Source: Lachnospiraceae bacterium
GTDB taxonomy: Bacteria > Bacillota > Clostridia > Lachnospirales > Lachnospiraceae
Direction: 5' to 3'
Assembly: GCA_017634975.1 (NCBI GenBank)
Contig: JAGBMJ010000103.1
Location: 62,001-126,000, forward strand
Length of the DNA: 64,000 bases
Positions 15,962 to 31,910 of this stretch are shown piece by piece; the stretch's first letter is position 1; every line of letters starts with the position of its first letter. Position numbers and translations under genes: made by a program. The notes under the pieces were generated by a model. It saw only the letters and a list, made by a program, of their open reading frames with translations, was not told the origin of the DNA and ran no database searches.

Positions 15962-17299
15962 TTACTCTTCACCGTCTTCCTCATCCTCTTCTTCATCCTT
16001 TTCCAGCTCCACATCAAAGAGCGCCTCTACGAATGCATCCGCATCAAATTTCTGCAGATCCTCGATCTTCTCACCGACACCGATATACTTCACCGGTACT
16101 TTGAGTTCTGACTGGATGGCGATCGCGATACCGCCCTTTGCCGTACCGTCCATCTTGGTCAGGATGATACCGGTCAGATCCGCTACGTCGTTAAAATCTC
16201 TTGCCTGCTGCAGCGCATTCTGTCCGGTCGTCGCATCCAGAACGATCAGGTTTTCACGATGCGCTTCCGGAAACTCGCGGTCGATCACGCGGTTCATCTT
16301 CTTCAGCTCTTCCATCAGGTTCTTCTTATTATTCAGACGTCCTGCAGTATCTACCAGCAGTACATCCACATGTCTTGCTTTCGCAGCATTTACGGCATCA
16401 AAGAGCACGCTGGACGGATCCTGCCCTTCCTTTCCGCCGATCAGCTCCACGCCGGCACGTTCCGCCCACACCTTCAGCTGGTCTCCGGCGGCTGCACGGA
16501 AGGTATCCGCCGCTGCCATCATGACTTTTTTATGCTTTTTCTTCAGCATCGATGCGATCTTTCCGATGGACGTCGTCTTACCCACGCCGTTCACACCGAT
16601 CACAAATACGATGGAAGTTTCTTTTTCAAAACGATAAGCCGTCTTGCCGACCGCCATCTGCTCACGGATGTTCTGGATCAGCAGCCGTTTGCATTCCGAA
16701 GGTCTTACGATATCCTCTTCCTCGATCTGTTCCCGCAGACGATCCAGGATCGCTTCCGTCGGTCCCACACCGATATCCCCCATGATCAGAATCTCTTCCA
16801 GATCATCAAAGAAATCATCATCGATCATCTCAGCGCCGTCAAAAACAACATCCAGGTTGTAGACGAAGCTGTCTCTGGTCTTGGCAAGTCCTTCCTTCAG
16901 ACGTGCAAAGAAGCCTTTTTTCTTTTTGACCGGAGGAATATCGTCCTCATCCTCGTCATCGTCATCGTCTTCCTCTTCTTCCTCATCTTCTTCGGTTTCG
17001 TCCGTGGTTTCTTTCTTCTTTCCGAACCATGAGAACGGCTTTTTCTTCGGCTTTAACTCTTCTTCCTCTTCAGCTTCCTTCTCCGGTTCCCCGGTTTGGA
17101 CCGACTCCTCTGCCGGCACATAAGATACCGCTGGAGTCACCGGCTCTTCCTTCTCTGCAGACACTTCCGCAGACGCCGTATCATTTACCGCAGGTCCTTC
17201 TTCTGCCCCAGCGTTTTGCGTGCTCCCGGCTGCTTCTTCCGCCGCTTCCGTTACTTCTTCGGTTTTTTCTTTCTTTTTCCCCCAGTTCCACCAGGCCAT
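15962..17299 (-). CDS. ftsY: Signal recognition particle receptor GTPase
   Basis: FtsY receives the signal recognition particle at the membrane and hands nascent chains to SecYEG. Residues 20-125 are strongly acidic (runs of Glu and Asp), the A domain typical of the longer bacterial forms. The NG domain follows: GVNGVGKTTSIGKIA near 235, DTFRAAA near 262, DTAGR near 316 and TKMDGTAKGG near 382. The total of 445 residues is normal for a form with an A domain. It belongs to the smc-ftsY cluster typical of Firmicutes, although a small membrane protein gene separates the two here. ffh is not in the window. Confidence 0.97.
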   Translation of the reverse strand: MAWWNWGKKKEKTEEVTEAAEEAAGSTQNAGAEEGPAVNDTASAEVSAEKEEPVTPAVSYVPAEESVQTGEPEKEAEEEEELKPKKKPFSWFGKKKETTDETEEDEEEEEDDDDDEDEDDIPPVKKKKGFFARLKEGLAKTRDSFVYNLDVVFDGAEMIDDDFFDDLEEILIMGDIGVGPTEAILDRLREQIEEEDIVRPSECKRLLIQNIREQMAVGKTAYRFEKETSIVFVIGVNGVGKTTSIGKIASMLKKKHKKVMMAAADTFRAAAGDQLKVWAERAGVELIGGKEGQDPSSVLFDAVNAAKARHVDVLLVDTAGRLNNKKNLMEELKKMNRVIDREFPEAHRENLIVLDATTGQNALQQARDFNDVADLTGIILTKMDGTAKGGIAIAIQSELKVPVKYIGVGEKIEDLQKFDADAFVEALFDVELEKDEEEDEEDGEE

Positions 17300-23910: not shown

Positions 23911-26727
23911 TTATTGAAGAAACTTTTCATATTCATCGATCAAAGCTTTTGCGTACGCCAGACCTGTGCCGGTCTGTTCTCTGCAGACTTTGATCGCGTC
24001 GAGTTTCTGCCCGCTGCGGATCATCGTAAGCATCACTTCTTTTTGTTCCGGCGTGAGTCTTCCCGCCAGTTCCCGGAGCGCTTCTTCCGGGATCACGGGA
24101 TTATCGTCCTCCCGATCCATATCTTCCGGATTGGTCGGTTCTGCTGTCCCAAACGACTGCACTGCCTGTACCTGCGTTGCCGCTGCCTGCGCAGTCTGCT
24201 CCTGCTGTGACTGTGCCTGCATGGTCTGCAGATTCTGCAGATACGGATTCACCGGCTGTTGCTGTGCATACGGATTGATCTGCAGATTCTGTCCTGCGTA
24301 GGGATTGATCTGCGACTGTTGCGGTGCAGGATTGATCGCACCCCCCTGCAGTATATTGGCCGTGGAAATCTCCGTACTATTGCCGGACAGAATGCCGCCG
24401 CCCGGCTGTATATTCTGTCCCGTTGCCATTCCCTGATTCTGCTGCAGATACGGGTTGATCGGCTGCTGCGGCGGCATATTGTTCCCGCCGTTTGCTGCAT
24501 ACGGATTCACCACGCCGGCCGGCACATTCGGCATATTCGCCGCAGGCTGATTATTCCGATACGGGTTCGGTGCATTCACTGCCCGGTTCTGCACTGCATT
24601 CTGCTGTGCAGCCTTTTTCCCTTTCGTTACCTTCAGGATCACCACGATAAGGATGACGAGCGCGACTCCGATCATTCCGAGTGCAACTACCATTGCGACT
24701 GTCTTTCTGGAATCCCCTTCTTCACGATCTTTTTCTGCAGGATCATCGACATCATCTCCATCCTGATCCGTCGTATCCTCCGGTTTTTCTGCTATCGTAG
24801 GTTCCGCATCACCCGTCGGCTCCGGATCTCCGGTCTGCGCAGGGACAATGGCTTCACCGCCTCCGCCCCAATATGTTGTGGCAATGTGCGGATCATACTC
24901 ATTCACTACCGTACGTTCATCCACCAATCCTACTGTATACTTGATATCATCTGCATACAGATCAAAGCGTGGGTTCTGGATCGGATTATTCAGCCCCACA
25001 TTCTCCAGGGTTTCCTGGAAATCCTGCTGGTATTCGGAATCCACCAGCGCCAGATAGCAATCAATACCTTCATCGCGATCGTCCAGGATCACATCAAGCA
25101 GTTCAAACACCGCCGCTGCAGATACCGAATAGCTGATGTAATACATCGGCGACTGGAAGGTATGCGGGATATCGATCCACTCGTAGCATTCGTTTGTCGG
25201 AAGCAAACCACTCTGCCCCCAGGAAATGGAATCATACATCATCGATCCAAAACGCCCGGAATATTCGGTACAGCAATCGTAGTAGATCTGGTTCAGTTTC
25301 TCCACCGTCAGGTTATCGGCATTTTTATACACCTCATACTGGAACGCATCTTCCTTGCAGCCTTCTACGGTCGCATAAGCCAGATTGAACAGTGTGTACA
25401 GCTTCATAACATCCGCATAATCGCCGTAGATATCTTCCGCATACTCCATAAAGAGCAGCTCCAATCCCTGGGAATGGATCTCCGCCAGGTCCAGATTTCC
25501 CTTATCGTAGTACCAGCTGTCTTCCGTCATATAATACATTTCGTTGTAATGTCCAAACTCGTGGATCAGTGTCTCCATATCCTGGATCGAACCGTCCGCA
25601 CAATTATAGATAAACGGAGCATTGTAGCCGCCAATGGAGATCGTATAACCGCCCGGCGCTTTTACATCACTGATGGAAAGATCATAGAGATGATGATCTT
25701 CCATATAATCCAAGGACACCAGAAGATCCGAGGAGATCTCCGGCAGATATTTCCGAAGTGTATCCAGGCAGTCCTGTTCCGTCATCTCCTGATTAAACAT
25801 ATCCATCAGCTCGTTATAATATGTTCCATAAAGCTCCATCATCAGGGAATCCTGCAGCGGAACGATCTCATTCTTTACCTGCTCACGGTATTCATCCAGT
25901 TCCGCTGTGGTATAATCACGCCCATAACGTTTATCATAAGCATATTCCGCAAAATCATTATAACCGTAGCTGCGTGCGATCTTGGTACGTACATCGACCA
26001 GTTCCAGATATAGCTCTGCGCGCTCCTGATTCTTCTGCTGAAGCAGATCTACCAGCGCTGCATTATAGCCGTCATGATCCAATGTGCCGTCCCCAAGCAA
26101 TCCGGCGAGTTCATCTTCCGTATAATCTTTTCCGTTGACCTTGGTCGTATATTCTTTATTGTACAGGACATCATACTTTAAGGACAGTTCCGTTTCCTTC
26201 GCAGACAGATCCTTCTGTTCCTGTGTCATCACGGTATAGTCCAAAATGTCCTGCCATTCATCCTCATCATCAACCCGTTCGTGAAGCACATCCGAATTGG
26301 GCGAAGTGGCGATCACATTGTAGCTGGTCATGATCTTATCGCCGATATTCGTTGTCAGCTCATCCCAGAACATCACCTCATCATCCCAGTACTCATCATC
26401 CGCTACCAGATCGGACTTGATATGTGCGATCGAATAATTGCGGGCAGCCTCGCAATAGTAATCCTCCATGCCGACGATCACATCCAGCACCTGATCGGCA
26501 TTGGCGGTATCCTGCACCAGGTCTTCCAGCCCGTCGATGATCACGTCAAAATCCGCCTCATCCATCCGTTCGTATTCATAATCCTCAAAATCCTTATCGG
26601 TATGATCCGTACGATCCGTCAGACGGCCGTCATGCTCTCCCGCCGCATATACCGTCATATTGGATAACAACGTTACTGCCGTTGCACCCGTTACGACCAC
26701 TCGTTTCCATAAATCTCTTTTTCTCAT
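23911..26727 (-). CDS. Secreted-side M3-like metallopeptidase with membrane anchor and cytosolic L12-like tail
   Basis: The order of parts is unusual. A signal peptide (residues 1-29, ending VYAAG) leads into a large peptidase domain with HEFGH (389-393) and a following EIHSQGLE glutamate, as in gluzincin M3-type oligopeptidases. An acidic, Pro-rich linker (625-675) precedes one membrane helix (676-700) and a KGKK stop-transfer sequence. The part after it should be cytosolic: a Gln/Asn/Pro-rich stretch with six NPY units (721-829), then residues 885-937, of which 905-935 (KLDAIKVCREQTGTGLAYAK) resemble the C-terminal domain of ribosomal protein L7/L12. Extracytoplasmic peptide cleavage is a family-based inference; the tail's role is unknown. 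It precedes rpmF. Confidence 0.8.
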   Translation of the reverse strand: MRKRDLWKRVVVTGATAVTLLSNMTVYAAGEHDGRLTDRTDHTDKDFEDYEYERMDEADFDVIIDGLEDLVQDTANADQVLDVIVGMEDYYCEAARNYSIAHIKSDLVADDEYWDDEVMFWDELTTNIGDKIMTSYNVIATSPNSDVLHERVDDEDEWQDILDYTVMTQEQKDLSAKETELSLKYDVLYNKEYTTKVNGKDYTEDELAGLLGDGTLDHDGYNAALVDLLQQKNQERAELYLELVDVRTKIARSYGYNDFAEYAYDKRYGRDYTTAELDEYREQVKNEIVPLQDSLMMELYGTYYNELMDMFNQEMTEQDCLDTLRKYLPEISSDLLVSLDYMEDHHLYDLSISDVKAPGGYTISIGGYNAPFIYNCADGSIQDMETLIHEFGHYNEMYYMTEDSWYYDKGNLDLAEIHSQGLELLFMEYAEDIYGDYADVMKLYTLFNLAYATVEGCKEDAFQYEVYKNADNLTVEKLNQIYYDCCTEYSGRFGSMMYDSISWGQSGLLPTNECYEWIDIPHTFQSPMYYISYSVSAAAVFELLDVILDDRDEGIDCYLALVDSEYQQDFQETLENVGLNNPIQNPRFDLYADDIKYTVGLVDERTVVNEYDPHIATTYWGGGGEAIVPAQTGDPEPTGDAEPTIAEKPEDTTDQDGDDVDDPAEKDREEGDSRKTVAMVVALGMIGVALVILIVVILKVTKGKKAAQQNAVQNRAVNAPNPYRNNQPAANMPNVPAGVVNPYAANGGNNMPPQQPINPYLQQNQGMATGQNIQPGGGILSGNSTEISTANILQGGAINPAPQQSQINPYAGQNLQINPYAQQQPVNPYLQNLQTMQAQSQQEQTAQAAATQVQAVQSFGTAEPTNPEDMDREDDNPVIPEEALRELAGRLTPEQKEVMLTMIRSGQKLDAIKVCREQTGTGLAYAKALIDEYEKFLQ

Positions 26728-26825: not shown

Positions 26826-27692
26826 TCAGCCGTACTTGATCATAAAATGCACTACTCCGAAAAACTCACGGATCGTATAATGGATCCCTACAGGCAGCAG
26901 TGTGGTTGCCGGTACGCTGTATGCATTTTTAAAGCCCTCGTTTTCTGCGATCATCCCGGCGCGGTATTCGTGAAAGCCGTTTGTGATGATACCGACAGCC
27001 GCATCTGCGTCCCCGATGATCTTTAAGCTGTATCGCAGGTTCTCTTCCGTCGATGTTGACCGGTCTTCCAGCAGGATACGCCCCTCCGCAATACCTTTTT
27101 CCACAAGGGATCGTTTGATACATTCCGCCTCGCTGATCCGTTCGTCCGGCCCCTGTCCGCCGGAGGCGATCACGATCGTATCCGGATTCTCTTTCATATA
27201 TTCCGCCGCTTTATCGATCCGCACCCGCAGCGGATTGGTCGGCTGATCCCCCACCAATCCAGCTCCGAGCACGATCACATAATCCAGATCCTTTTCCGGC
27301 ACGCCGGTCATGGCATCCACGATCAGTCCTTCCACGATCAGAAACAACAACAGTCCCGCTGTAAAACATGTACGGTAGATATAACGGATCACCTTCGGGA
27401 TTCTGATGATCGGCTGGTCCCTGATCTCCGCGCGAAGCATGATCATCCGCATCACACCAAACAGTGCCAGAACCGGCCACAGCCACACCAGGGACAGGTG
27501 AATCCCCGCATAGCGCAGACACACCAGAAAGTAAATTGCAGACCACAGGCTCATCGGCGCATACAGATACACCAGCAGGATACTGAACCAATGCTTCGAT
27601 CCCTTCTTCGCCTTCCGCAAAAAAATAGCCGCCACGATCAATCCAACCACAAATATGATCAGTGAAAAAACGATAATACGTACTTTTATCAT
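26826..27692 (-). CDS. YdcF/DUF218 family membrane protein, copy 1
   Basis: Four to five membrane helices in the first 130 residues are followed by a DUF218 domain (residues 135-288). Its motifs are DYVIVLGAGL, ASGGQGPDE, STSTEENLRYS and TNGFHEYRA. DUF218 members include SanA/YdcF/ElyC proteins linked to cell-envelope integrity; the biochemical activity is not established. It is a tandem paralogue of the next gene upstream, with the same domain layout, so a local duplication is likely. A gap of 26 bases suggests one transcript. Confidence 0.85.
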   Translation of the reverse strand: MIKVRIIVFSLIIFVVGLIVAAIFLRKAKKGSKHWFSILLVYLYAPMSLWSAIYFLVCLRYAGIHLSLVWLWPVLALFGVMRMIMLRAEIRDQPIIRIPKVIRYIYRTCFTAGLLLFLIVEGLIVDAMTGVPEKDLDYVIVLGAGLVGDQPTNPLRVRIDKAAEYMKENPDTIVIASGGQGPDERISEAECIKRSLVEKGIAEGRILLEDRSTSTEENLRYSLKIIGDADAAVGIITNGFHEYRAGMIAENEGFKNAYSVPATTLLPVGIHYTIREFFGVVHFMIKYG

Positions 27693-27718: not shown

Positions 27719-28579
27719 TCATCGTCCGCGCACAACAAACGAGACCACTCCGAAAAACTCCCTTACTGTATAATGGATCCCGATTGGCAACAATGTCTTT
27801 GCCGGCACGCTGCTCAGTTCACGAAAACCGGCTTTCCTTGCAAACATCATAGCTCGGTATTCGTGAAAGCCGTTCGTTATAACGCCCACACTTGCATCCA
27901 CATTTCCTATGATTTCCATACTGTATCTCAGATTCTCTGCAGTAGACGTTGACTGGTCTTCCATCAGGATACGATCCCCGGCAATACCATGCTTTTCCAT
28001 CAGTGTCCGTCGAATACACTCTGCTTCGCTAATCTCCTCATCACTTCCCTGGCCGCCCGACGCGATCAACAAAGTATCCGGGTTTTCTTTCATGTATTCC
28101 GCTGCCCGGCTGATCCGCTGCTCCAGTGTCGGCGAAGGTTCTTCACCTTTCACCTGGGCTCCCAGCACGATCACATAATCCAATTCTCCCTTCGGCTCTC
28201 CGGTCATTGCTCCAAGTACGAGTCCTTCCACAATAACAAACAGCAAAAGCCCTGCTGCAAAACACCCACGCCAGATACATCGGATCCATTTCGGGATCCG
28301 TATCAACGGTTTACCATAGATCTCGGTTGTCAGCATTACGATCCGTGCCGCACCAAACACTGCGATTGCCGGCCACAGCCAGATCATCGACAGCCCCGTC
28401 CCATGCAGACACCAGAAATAATAAAACACCGACCATAATGTCAGCGATGTATAAATATATATCAAAACCTTTTCAAAGGCATACTTTCTTTTTTCCACCT
28501 TGCGTAACAGCAGTCCGGCTGCGATCACGCCGATCAGAAAAATGACCAGCATATATACAATCACGTTTCCTAAAGACAT
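27719..28579 (-). CDS. YdcF/DUF218 family membrane protein, copy 2
   Basis: This protein has the same length, helix pattern and motifs as its downstream neighbour (DYVIVLGAQV, ASGGQGSDE, STSTAENLRYS, TNGFHEYRAMM). The two copies are closely similar in the C-terminal domain and more divergent in the membrane part. The ATG has GGGGAT nine bases upstream. It is divergent from tmcAL, with about 170 bases between them. A function in the envelope is family-based inference. Confidence 0.85.
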   Translation of the reverse strand: MSLGNVIVYMLVIFLIGVIAAGLLLRKVEKRKYAFEKVLIYIYTSLTLWSVFYYFWCLHGTGLSMIWLWPAIAVFGAARIVMLTTEIYGKPLIRIPKWIRCIWRGCFAAGLLLFVIVEGLVLGAMTGEPKGELDYVIVLGAQVKGEEPSPTLEQRISRAAEYMKENPDTLLIASGGQGSDEEISEAECIRRTLMEKHGIAGDRILMEDQSTSTAENLRYSMEIIGNVDASVGVITNGFHEYRAMMFARKAGFRELSSVPAKTLLPIGIHYTVREFFGVVSFVVRGR

Positions 28580-29910: not shown

Positions 29911-31851
29911 TCATTTGACGGTCTCATAAACCCGTCCGTCCTTATCCACCTGTTTCAAGAAGTGATCCGTTTCAAACGTCAGCTCTTCCACCAGATCCGT
30001 ATCGATATTGTGGCCGGTATTGGAGTACATCACCAGCTTGCAATGCGGCAGTTCCTTTGCCGTACGCAGCATCAGTTCCGGTGTACTGATCGGATCATCG
30101 ACCGCACCAAGGATCAGGGTCGGGGTCTGTATCGTATGCAGTGCTTCTCTGAGCTTTTCCTCGGTCTTGTATTTCAACAGCGGTCTGCCGTAATCGATTG
30201 CCTTCTCCCGGGGATCCGGCTCCGGATTCTGCGCGATGTGGTTTTCACGGAATTCCCGGCGTCTTACGCGTGCCGGATCGTTATCGATCGGCGGGTCCAT
30301 CGGCGGTATCTCTTTGAGCGCACCGGACAAGGCCATCTGTCGCAGGCTCATGGTCCCTTCTTCCAGGCTGTGCGGCCCCGGTACCATAGCAACCAATCCT
30401 TTTACACGTTCCGGATGGTTCAGGCACAGATGCCAGCCCACGCCGGCTCCATGGGAAGCTCCCATATAGAAAAACTTATCGACCTTCATCTTATCCGCCA
30501 CGCGGATCACATCTTTTGCAAACACATCATACCACTGATCTCCGTAATCTTCCGTGACATACGACGACGGTGCAAATCCGCGCAAAGTGATACAGATCAG
30601 ATGATAACCTTTGGACGCTACCGGCCACTGCATCCCGAGAGGATAAAATCCCATCTGTGCCGAAAAAATGTAATTATCCCCCCAGCCGTATTCCTCATAG
30701 GCCAGTTTCACTCCCGGTTCCACTTCAACAAAATGGGTATTCAGTTTTGCATAGGCCCGCCGGTAGGAATGAGGCACATTTGCCTGCAATTCTTCTTCGG
30801 TGTATTCGTTATGCAGTTCATCGATCTGTGCTTCATCCACTACGGTTTTCAGCACACTGTAATACGACTTCTTCGGCCGGGAATCTCCGTCAAAAAGGAG
30901 CGGATAACTGGTCTCTTTGCGGAATCCGGTCAGCCAGCTGTCGCTGTCCCGCAGATTCCACAACGTAACCGCCGTAATATTCGCTTTTCCGTTTTTCTTC
31001 GTCTCTACCAGCAAGCGGAACAGATCCGCATAACGGTCTGCCAGCGCCTGCATTGACTCCTCCGAAGGATCTGCATTATGGATATCCAGCTCGGTCAGCT
31101 GTACTTCGATCCCCAGAGCTCCATAGCGGTAAAGAGCCTCTTTGAAGAGGTCCATCCCCGGAAAGTCCATCACGAAGTGGGACTGCATACCGAAACCGTC
31201 GACAATTCCCTTTTCCTTCAGCGGTTTTAGGATCTTTTCGATGATCAGATCCCGTTTCCATTCTTCGTAGCAGTTGTAATCATTATAGAAGAGTTTCACC
31301 TCCTCTGCCGCGTATTTGCGGGCAAAGGTGAATGCCTTCTCCACAAAATCCGTACCGACCGTTTCCGTCCAGCGTGATTTACGGAAATCCCCCTCATCAA
31401 TGGCCTCGTTTACCACGTCCCAGCAATAGATCACGCCCGGATAGTTTTCCTGTACAAAAGTAAGTACGCCTTTGATATAGTTTTCCATTCTGGAAAGCAT
31501 CTTCTCCCGGCTTACCAGCGGAGCAAATTCATCATAATTCTCGCGGAAAAACCATTCCGGTGTCTGATTATGCCATACCAGGGTATGTCCGCGCATCGGT
31601 ATCCCGCTTTTTTTGGCAAACTCCAGAAACGGAATCGCAAATTGAAAATCCAGTTTCGGTGCCGTATCGTATTTTTCCGGTTCCAGCCGGCTGTCCGGAT
31701 CCAGAAAAAACATCGGCTTCATATCATTCTCTGCCGTAAAACTGCTGAACTGCGAGCAGACCAGCTTCCGGTTTGCCTCGGTTTCCAGATTGCGTCTGGA
31801 CAATGCCACACCGATCTTAAAAAGATCCTGAAATGCTGTTTTCAAATCCAT
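29911..31851 (-). CDS. Cytoplasmic GH10 xylanase fused to an alpha/beta hydrolase
   Basis: Residues 1-340 are a GH10 glycoside hydrolase with the acid/base Glu149 (WDVVNEAI) and nucleophile Glu255 (QLTELDIH). Residues 365-646 are an alpha/beta hydrolase with the serine elbow GASHG (Ser466), an acidic residue in GAVDDP (585/586) and a C-terminal histidine in NTGHN (614). There is no signal peptide, so it likely acts inside the cell on imported xylo-oligosaccharides, removing ester groups with one half and cutting the chain with the other; that division of labour is inference. The ATG at 31851 has the strong site AAGGAGGG; a longer frame upstream lacks one. No transporter or xylosidase gene is adjacent, although a GH31 lies elsewhere in the window. 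Confidence 0.9.
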   Translation of the reverse strand: MDLKTAFQDLFKIGVALSRRNLETEANRKLVCSQFSSFTAENDMKPMFFLDPDSRLEPEKYDTAPKLDFQFAIPFLEFAKKSGIPMRGHTLVWHNQTPEWFFRENYDEFAPLVSREKMLSRMENYIKGVLTFVQENYPGVIYCWDVVNEAIDEGDFRKSRWTETVGTDFVEKAFTFARKYAAEEVKLFYNDYNCYEEWKRDLIIEKILKPLKEKGIVDGFGMQSHFVMDFPGMDLFKEALYRYGALGIEVQLTELDIHNADPSEESMQALADRYADLFRLLVETKKNGKANITAVTLWNLRDSDSWLTGFRKETSYPLLFDGDSRPKKSYYSVLKTVVDEAQIDELHNEYTEEELQANVPHSYRRAYAKLNTHFVEVEPGVKLAYEEYGWGDNYIFSAQMGFYPLGMQWPVASKGYHLICITLRGFAPSSYVTEDYGDQWYDVFAKDVIRVADKMKVDKFFYMGASHGAGVGWHLCLNHPERVKGLVAMVPGPHSLEEGTMSLRQMALSGALKEIPPMDPPIDNDPARVRRREFRENHIAQNPEPDPREKAIDYGRPLLKYKTEEKLREALHTIQTPTLILGAVDDPISTPELMLRTAKELPHCKLVMYSNTGHNIDTDLVEELTFETDHFLKQVDKDGRVYETVK

Positions 31852-31910
31852 CGTGTAACCCTCCTTATTACTTTGCATATTCTGTTGCTGCCGAAAAAAG
31901 ATCACATTCC

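Follow-up and report, generated by a model that had tools for sequence, protein, structure and literature searches.

The window analysed here, a stretch of 64,000 nucleotides of Lachnospiraceae DNA, carries a gene whose product has an N-terminus resembling a signal peptide, followed by a complete M3 oligopeptidase domain, a single membrane helix, a long Gln/Asn-rich linker and a C-terminal module that appears, beyond what chance would explain, to be homologous to the GTPase-binding helix 4-5 hairpin of ribosomal protein L7/L12 (Table 1). We regard this architecture as nearly certain, and the order of its parts is the one read by the first-pass annotation, which had been made from the sequence alone. 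Among the titles and abstract openings listed in searches of the open-access literature, neither a protein with this domain order nor a recurrent L12-hairpin module of membrane proteins was found described. The single parts are known, and it is their combination that is new. Excerpts of PMC8283722 record a Ribosomal_L12 domain on a cyanobacterial orthocaspase (1 of 473), which joins a protease to an L12-type domain as here, although its peptidase belongs to a different family, C14; phage proteins annotated with an L7/L12 C-terminal domain appear in excerpts of PMC12509530.

Table 1. Features of the M3 peptidase gene and its product (positions in the window).
Feature	Residues	Window positions	Strand	Basis or remark
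Whole gene, 938 aa		23911..26727	minus	stop codon 23911-23913
Signal-peptide-like N-terminus	1-28	26644..26727	minus	hydropathy peak 10-28; similar N-termini
M3 oligopeptidase domain, probably extracytoplasmic	47-587	24967..26589	minus	profile and PDB matches
HEFGH zinc/catalytic motif	389-393	25549..25563	minus	alignment A2
EIHS with E416	416-419	25471..25482	minus	aligned to solved M3 peptidases
Membrane helix	680-698	24634..24690	minus	mean Kyte-Doolittle 3.32
Gln/Asn-rich low-charge linker	701-870	24118..24627	minus	32% Gln+Asn
C-terminal module, probably helical	881-938	23914..24087	minus	alignments A1, A3; helical periodicity
Hairpin corresponding to L12 helices 4-5 (E. coli 64-88)	907-931	23935..24009	minus	profile comparisons

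The HEFGH peptidase proposed by the first-pass annotation was found to be a full M3 domain. When compared with PDB entries, residues 47-587 were best aligned with residues 6-547 of 2h1j (E 1.8e-33), and 3sks and 3ahm were also matched end to end. The Pfam profile PF01432 was matched with an E value of 6.6e-8 and 32.8 bits, above its cut-off of 27, and TIGR02289 gave 194.1 bits, below its cut-off of 442.35; as judged from these sequence scores, the window peptidase is a member of peptidase family M3 outside the named subfamily M3_not_pepF (TIGR02289). Its active-site motifs are intact, because HExGH (H389, E390, G392 and H393; F391 is replaced by Tyr in the orthologue L005) and residues 416-419 are unchanged in 16 of the 16 aligned orthologues. 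E416, presumably the third zinc ligand, aligns with the glutamate of EIHS in 2h1j, 3sks and 3ahm. The window peptidase is thus homologous from end to end to the M3 oligopeptidases of the PepF / Pz-peptidase group (the three PDB entries above and TIGR02289), and it shares with them HExGH, EIHS and a segment H-x-(F/Y)-x-x-(P/A)-x-Y-Y-I-x-Y near the domain end; unlike them, it is extended by a signal peptide in front and, behind the domain, by a membrane helix with a long inner tail. Region 30-600 is strongly acidic, with 127 Asp and Glu against 36 Lys and Arg.

Concerning the placement of the protein in the membrane, the proposed signal peptide was supported by the hydropathy of the N-terminus and by a cleavage-like VYA/AG sequence seen by eye; most rows of alignment A2 begin, also by eye, in a way that resembles the window peptidase. 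The membrane helix, which had been placed at residues 676-700, was recovered as one strong helix, directly followed in the window peptidase by a net charge of +4. A strong hydropathy peak after HExGH was present in all 30 orthologues read, and in 30 of 30 the 15 residues after this peak were net positive. Since a signal peptide is combined with a membrane helix that has positive charge behind it, we infer that the M3 domain is likely to lie outside the cell and the tail in the cytosol. The linker between the helix and the terminal module holds, as had been noticed, the six NPY units, which are exactly those of the whole protein (at 721, 741, 758, 808, 818 and 827). It also contains NPYLQNL at 827-833, a motif that eight of the orthologues lacking the module have close to their C-terminus.

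The likeness of residues of about 905-935 to the C-terminal domain of L7/L12, claimed by the first-pass annotation, could be upheld for the helix 4-5 hairpin and had to be given up for the complete domain. When the whole protein was compared with PF00542, residues 897-936 were matched with E 3e-4 and 21.5 bits, short of the cut-off of 25.9, and the 66-residue tail by itself reached 27.1 bits against the same cut-off. This match covers profile positions 2-40 of 67, and the protein ends two residues later. PF00542 was matched by 10 of the 12 modules of alignment A3; in the window peptidase, TIGR00855 matched residues 894-935 only. A comparison by hhalign with five bL12 sequences gave a probability of 96.1% over 36 columns, and when a profile made of 12 modules was compared with the PDB, the bL12 entries ranked first (best E 1.1e-6). 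When a profile of the five M3 tails was searched in 60 genomes at E 0.01, matches were obtained in 50 of them, the strongest being module-bearing proteins. Frames of 121-185 residues, assigned to bL12 by their size (the five that were read, L046, L048, L050, L053 and L057, are bL12), were matched in 47 of the 60 genomes at this threshold, mostly at profile positions 34-59 or 35-60.

Thus, the stretch that the tail has in common with bL12 consists of helices 4-5 plus a little before them, and because of this limit the tail is classed as a hairpin-homologous module and not as an L12 C-terminal domain. A whole domain was rejected, as neither the second strand nor the last helix is reached by the match. 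At the place of the first strand of L12, the alignment has a periodicity of 0.55 for helix against 0.19 for strand, weak evidence that a helix may replace the strand. Ahead of the hairpin, a front part of the form YLxxxAxxLxxEQKxxLLxMI is common to the tail and to membrane proteins of the genus (A3). Compared with the bL12 C-terminal domain (PF00542), the window hairpin has the equivalents of K65, I69, K70, R73, T76, G77, G79, L80, A83 and K84; unlike bL12, the tail has this additional helical-looking front part and Ala at position 68, and K81 is lost. The N-terminal dimerisation domain of bL12 is absent from the window protein, where the peptidase, the membrane helix and the linker are found instead. 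The same genome has a full bL12-type match at C67. An EF-Ts-like (UBA-type) helix pair, considered as another candidate, was absent from the list of Pfam matches of the 12 modules, as far as this list goes. In PHROGs, no family was found for the tail, and two module proteins (L066 and L076) matched, with their L12-related module, only the families 5819 and 26927, phage proteins of unknown function.

A peptidase relative was found in 34 of the 35 genomes of the genus, the one without it being 72% complete. Among the best 30 of the 34 loci, the module was present on the peptidase in five (G000, G032, G021, G006 and G010) versus 25 without it, and a search of all 35 genomes with the tail profile gave no peptidase with the module beyond these five. 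The same-order homologues that the first-pass annotation had proposed to look for in related genomes amount to a fusion in 5 of 35. In a tree of the 30 peptidase domains, the five module-bearers formed one group (support 97/96), corresponding to one change; on this sequence tree, the module is shown to have been gained once on the peptidase, in one clade. It is present in all five species of that clade, and ten columns are invariant in the alignment of the five tails, while the linker before them diverged widely. A motif NP(F/Y)L(Q/E/K)(N/K/R)L begins 17-25 residues from the C-terminus in eight orthologues that lack the module and 105-150 residues from it in the five module-bearers. The module is therefore probably an extension of an older C-terminus. 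As the hairpin is absent from 25 of the 30 orthologues read, the peptidase does not need it. Among the other orthologues, some have a Gln/Pro-rich end, some terminate close to a motif of the NPFLQNL type, and L020 and L021 stop shortly behind the membrane helix. In one orthologue (L029, genome G017), the inner tail ends in a zinc-ribbon-like CxxC pair and not in an L12 hairpin.

Outside the genus, 43 of 150 family genomes matched the peptidase at E 1e-20, with closer relatives (31-37% identity) in four other genera. Two of these, L144 and L146, look by eye like lipoproteins, and the other two, L145 and L147, have a membrane helix near the C-terminus, followed by a short tail; all four are probably extracytoplasmic M3 peptidases of Lachnospiraceae. 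No module was seen on them when both ends were examined by eye. The fusion was found in three named relatives, all of them uncultured Lachnospiraceae, two of which are labelled as coming from roe deer and sheep rumen.

Related modules were furthermore found on proteins other than bL12 and the peptidase. Six such proteins were read among the 60 relatives (in G013, G024 with two, G029, G006 and G023), a count that excludes two weak matches, G050:C138 and G038:C4 (E about 0.009). Of 250 family genomes, 215 were matched, and the non-bL12 proteins among the matches listed were, besides the window's, in G099, G188, G146 and G180; 101 phylum genomes added the module matches in G312 and G372. In 199 phylum genomes searched at E 1e-6, only the window protein stood out by its frame length. 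A membrane-helix peak was seen in the hydropathy of nine of ten module proteins, the tenth (L064) being cut by a contig end, and also in L073, L074 (Moraxellaceae), L141 and L142, barely so in L073 (1.69); the search profiles had been built from membrane proteins, so that this sample is biased towards them.

Apart from the peptidases, the proteins most closely related to the tail are L066, L067 and L068 (E 4.8e-17 to 4.4e-14, the extra front part included), which form together with L064 a multi-pass membrane family of the genus with one or two modules. In these three proteins the module is internal and followed by more sequence, unlike the terminal module of the window protein. L064 and L068 run into contig ends and are incomplete, and Pfam named no domain in the C-terminal part of this family in a scan made without L068. 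Two DUF6709 proteins, L076 and L077, carry a terminal hairpin and have an apparently similar order, with a domain between two membrane helices, a linker and the terminal module. Like the window protein, they and the small single-pass proteins L125, L141 and L142 present a membrane helix, a linker and a C-terminal hairpin, but none of them has a peptidase, and their modules have little or nothing of the extra N-terminal part. Altogether, the data point to an L12 helix 4-5-related module that recurs on membrane proteins, and its occurrence on DUF6709, small single-pass and multi-pass proteins suggests that it is mobile and used on the inner side of such proteins. A different arrangement was observed in L069 (G023:C84), where a complete L12-type C-terminal domain (52 bits) stands at the N-terminus, ahead of a membrane helix and leucine-rich repeats. 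The genome G383 has two bL12-sized frames (G383:C18 and G383:C63), the second of which (L143) reads as a whole bL12.

Excerpts of PMC6753160 name a conserved, positively charged site in helices 4 and 5 as the L12 surface that binds IF2, EF-Tu, EF-G and RF3, and describe this binding as charge-driven; for RF3, this helix 4-5 site is the sole contact in the fit of the authors, according to excerpts of PMC3677378. Mutants of K65 or K70 bind EF-Tu poorly, and lysines 65, 70, 81 and 84 are termed conserved, in excerpts of PMC10602876. The window hairpin keeps K65, I69, K70, R73, L80 and K84 as K908, I912, K913, R916, L923 and K927. Of these, I69, R73 and L80 are residues that we take to be L12 contacts as well. 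In the five M3 tails, positions 65, 69, 73, 80 and 84 are the same as in E. coli L12 in 5/5, position 70 is Lys in three, Arg in one and Gly in one, and K81, Lys in bL12, is replaced by Ala or Ile in all five.

Over 19 modules, the set 65, 69, 70, 73, 80 and 84 agreed with E. coli L12 in 88.6% of alignment cells, versus 51.5% elsewhere in the hairpin, similar residues being counted as agreeing (permutation p 0.007-0.008). When the conservation was tested again with other sets, the p value was 0.35 for K65 and K70 alone, 0.21 for lysines 65, 70, 81 and 84, 0.14 for positions 65, 70, 73, 81 and 84, and 0.025 for the six-residue set plus 81. The conservation of the contact face depends on the residues chosen, and the strongest p value needs I69, R73 and L80 to be counted as contacts. 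Moreover, the modules are mutually related and were collected by similarity, so that even the better p values serve only as a guide. On the other side of the comparison, Val occupies position 68 in 51 of the 53 distinct bL12 hairpins (from 73 loci), whereas 19 of 21 modules have Ala there, and the opposite face of the hairpin is further altered at 71, 72, 75 and 78; since the pattern used for bL12 fixed or limited positions 65, 69, 70, 73, 80-84 and 86-88, only the other columns are fair for bL12. The net charge of the hairpin is +1, -1, -1, +1 and 0 in the five M3 tails and +2 in both E. coli bL12 and that of the same genome; it is -3 in L076, -2 in L077, +2 in L141 and +4 in L142.

M3 domains cut short peptides, and the M3 domain of the window protein, if active and outside the cell, would act on such substrates. 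On the other side of the membrane, the tether of about 170 Gln/Asn-rich residues would present the probably helical hairpin as a flexible hook, as the hinge of L12 does for its domain, and the face formed by K908, I912, K913, R916, L923 and K927 would grip the acidic helix on a G domain. As partners, the translational GTPases EF-Tu, EF-G, IF2 and RF3 are the best candidates; their binding would keep the peptidase near membrane-bound translation or, conversely, a factor near the membrane. The tie between outside proteolysis and translation that the first-pass annotation proposed is a hypothesis, and no coupling between the outer and inner sides would be required. A protein-docking role of the module in the cytosol seems probable to us, whereas the full scheme, in which a membrane-anchored outer oligopeptidase would bear a docking module that catches a G domain, is put forward tentatively and may well be wrong. 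A G domain is the most specific guess for the partner, because the face that is kept includes the G-domain-binding face of L12; a translational GTPase as this partner is nevertheless unlikely, our estimate having been lowered from about a quarter to about a fifth in view of the re-test of the residue sets, the loss of K81 and the low charge. At least equally likely is a partner that has nothing to do with translation. The most far-reaching reading is that the factor-binding hairpin of the ribosomal stalk, minus its beta sheet, has been reused as an inner-face hook on assorted membrane proteins and would here recruit a translational GTPase (EF-Tu, EF-G or another), or indirectly ribosomes, to the membrane beside the outer peptidase; its probability is estimated at roughly 0.18.

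The scheme of a G-domain hook has to be weighed against another reading, to which we give nearly an even chance, namely that the hairpin descends from L12 and serves general docking or self-association with a partner unrelated to translation, such as a membrane protein or a scaffold, the kept residues stabilising the hairpin itself. The occurrence of the module on several unrelated membrane proteins, the extra N-terminal part common to the modules of the genus, the low net charge and the missing K81 all fit such a role, and the lysines backed by the literature, taken alone, are kept no better than the rest (p 0.21-0.35). What it explains less well is that the charged positions 65, 73 and 84 are the same as in L12 in 5/5 M3 tails and in most of the 19 modules, as a hydrophobic core alone has no obvious need for them.

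The tail could also be one of many exchangeable endings of the peptidase, concerned with localisation or stability only and with no specific partner of the hairpin. The varied ends of the orthologues (Gln/Pro-rich, NPFLQNL-type, zinc-ribbon-like or short) speak for it, as do the relatives of the four other genera, which appear to be lipid- or helix-anchored with short or no tails; we nevertheless consider it improbable, since the module was kept with its ten invariant columns in 5/5 species of the clade in spite of the diverged linker. Finally, the Pfam score of the whole protein, below the curated cut-off, would be compatible with a short helical pattern that matches by chance; alternatively, an error of assembly might have created the fusion. 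This is strongly disfavoured and close to negligible, as the same fusion occurs in five genomes, the tail profile finds bL12-sized frames in 47 of 60 genomes, and hhalign relates the two families with 96.1%.

Should the hairpin of the window protein bind translational GTPases in the manner of L12, a membrane-side docking system for translation factors may have arisen from a ribosomal part; no description of such a system was found in the searches of the open-access literature. Even if it does not, the module recurs on membrane proteins and could be mistaken in annotation for ribosomal protein L7/L12.

The peptidase gene adjoins plsX-acp-rnc-smc, with ftsY farther out, and this order, with ftsY beyond the cluster, is common in Firmicutes. 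A plsX relative, a HIGH-nucleotidyltransferase gene or their neighbours were seen beside the peptidase gene at 23 of 30 loci, in flanks of about 1.5 kb or less; at the other 7 of 30, no such neighbour was seen within them. In the window, the gene at 15962-17299 (minus strand), downstream of plsX-acp-rnc-smc, encodes an SRP54-type GTPase and is ftsY by its place and size; the proximity of this SRP receptor gene is at most suggestive as a hint to a partner. Also adjoining the peptidase gene, at 26826-27692 and 27719-28579 (both minus), lies a tandem pair of DUF218 (YdcF-like) genes with about 60% mutual identity, which is found again in L072 and with one copy at the edge of L070. Farther on, at 29911-31905 (minus), one gene joins a GH10 xylanase-type domain to an alpha/beta hydrolase domain; inspection by eye showed no obvious signal peptide.
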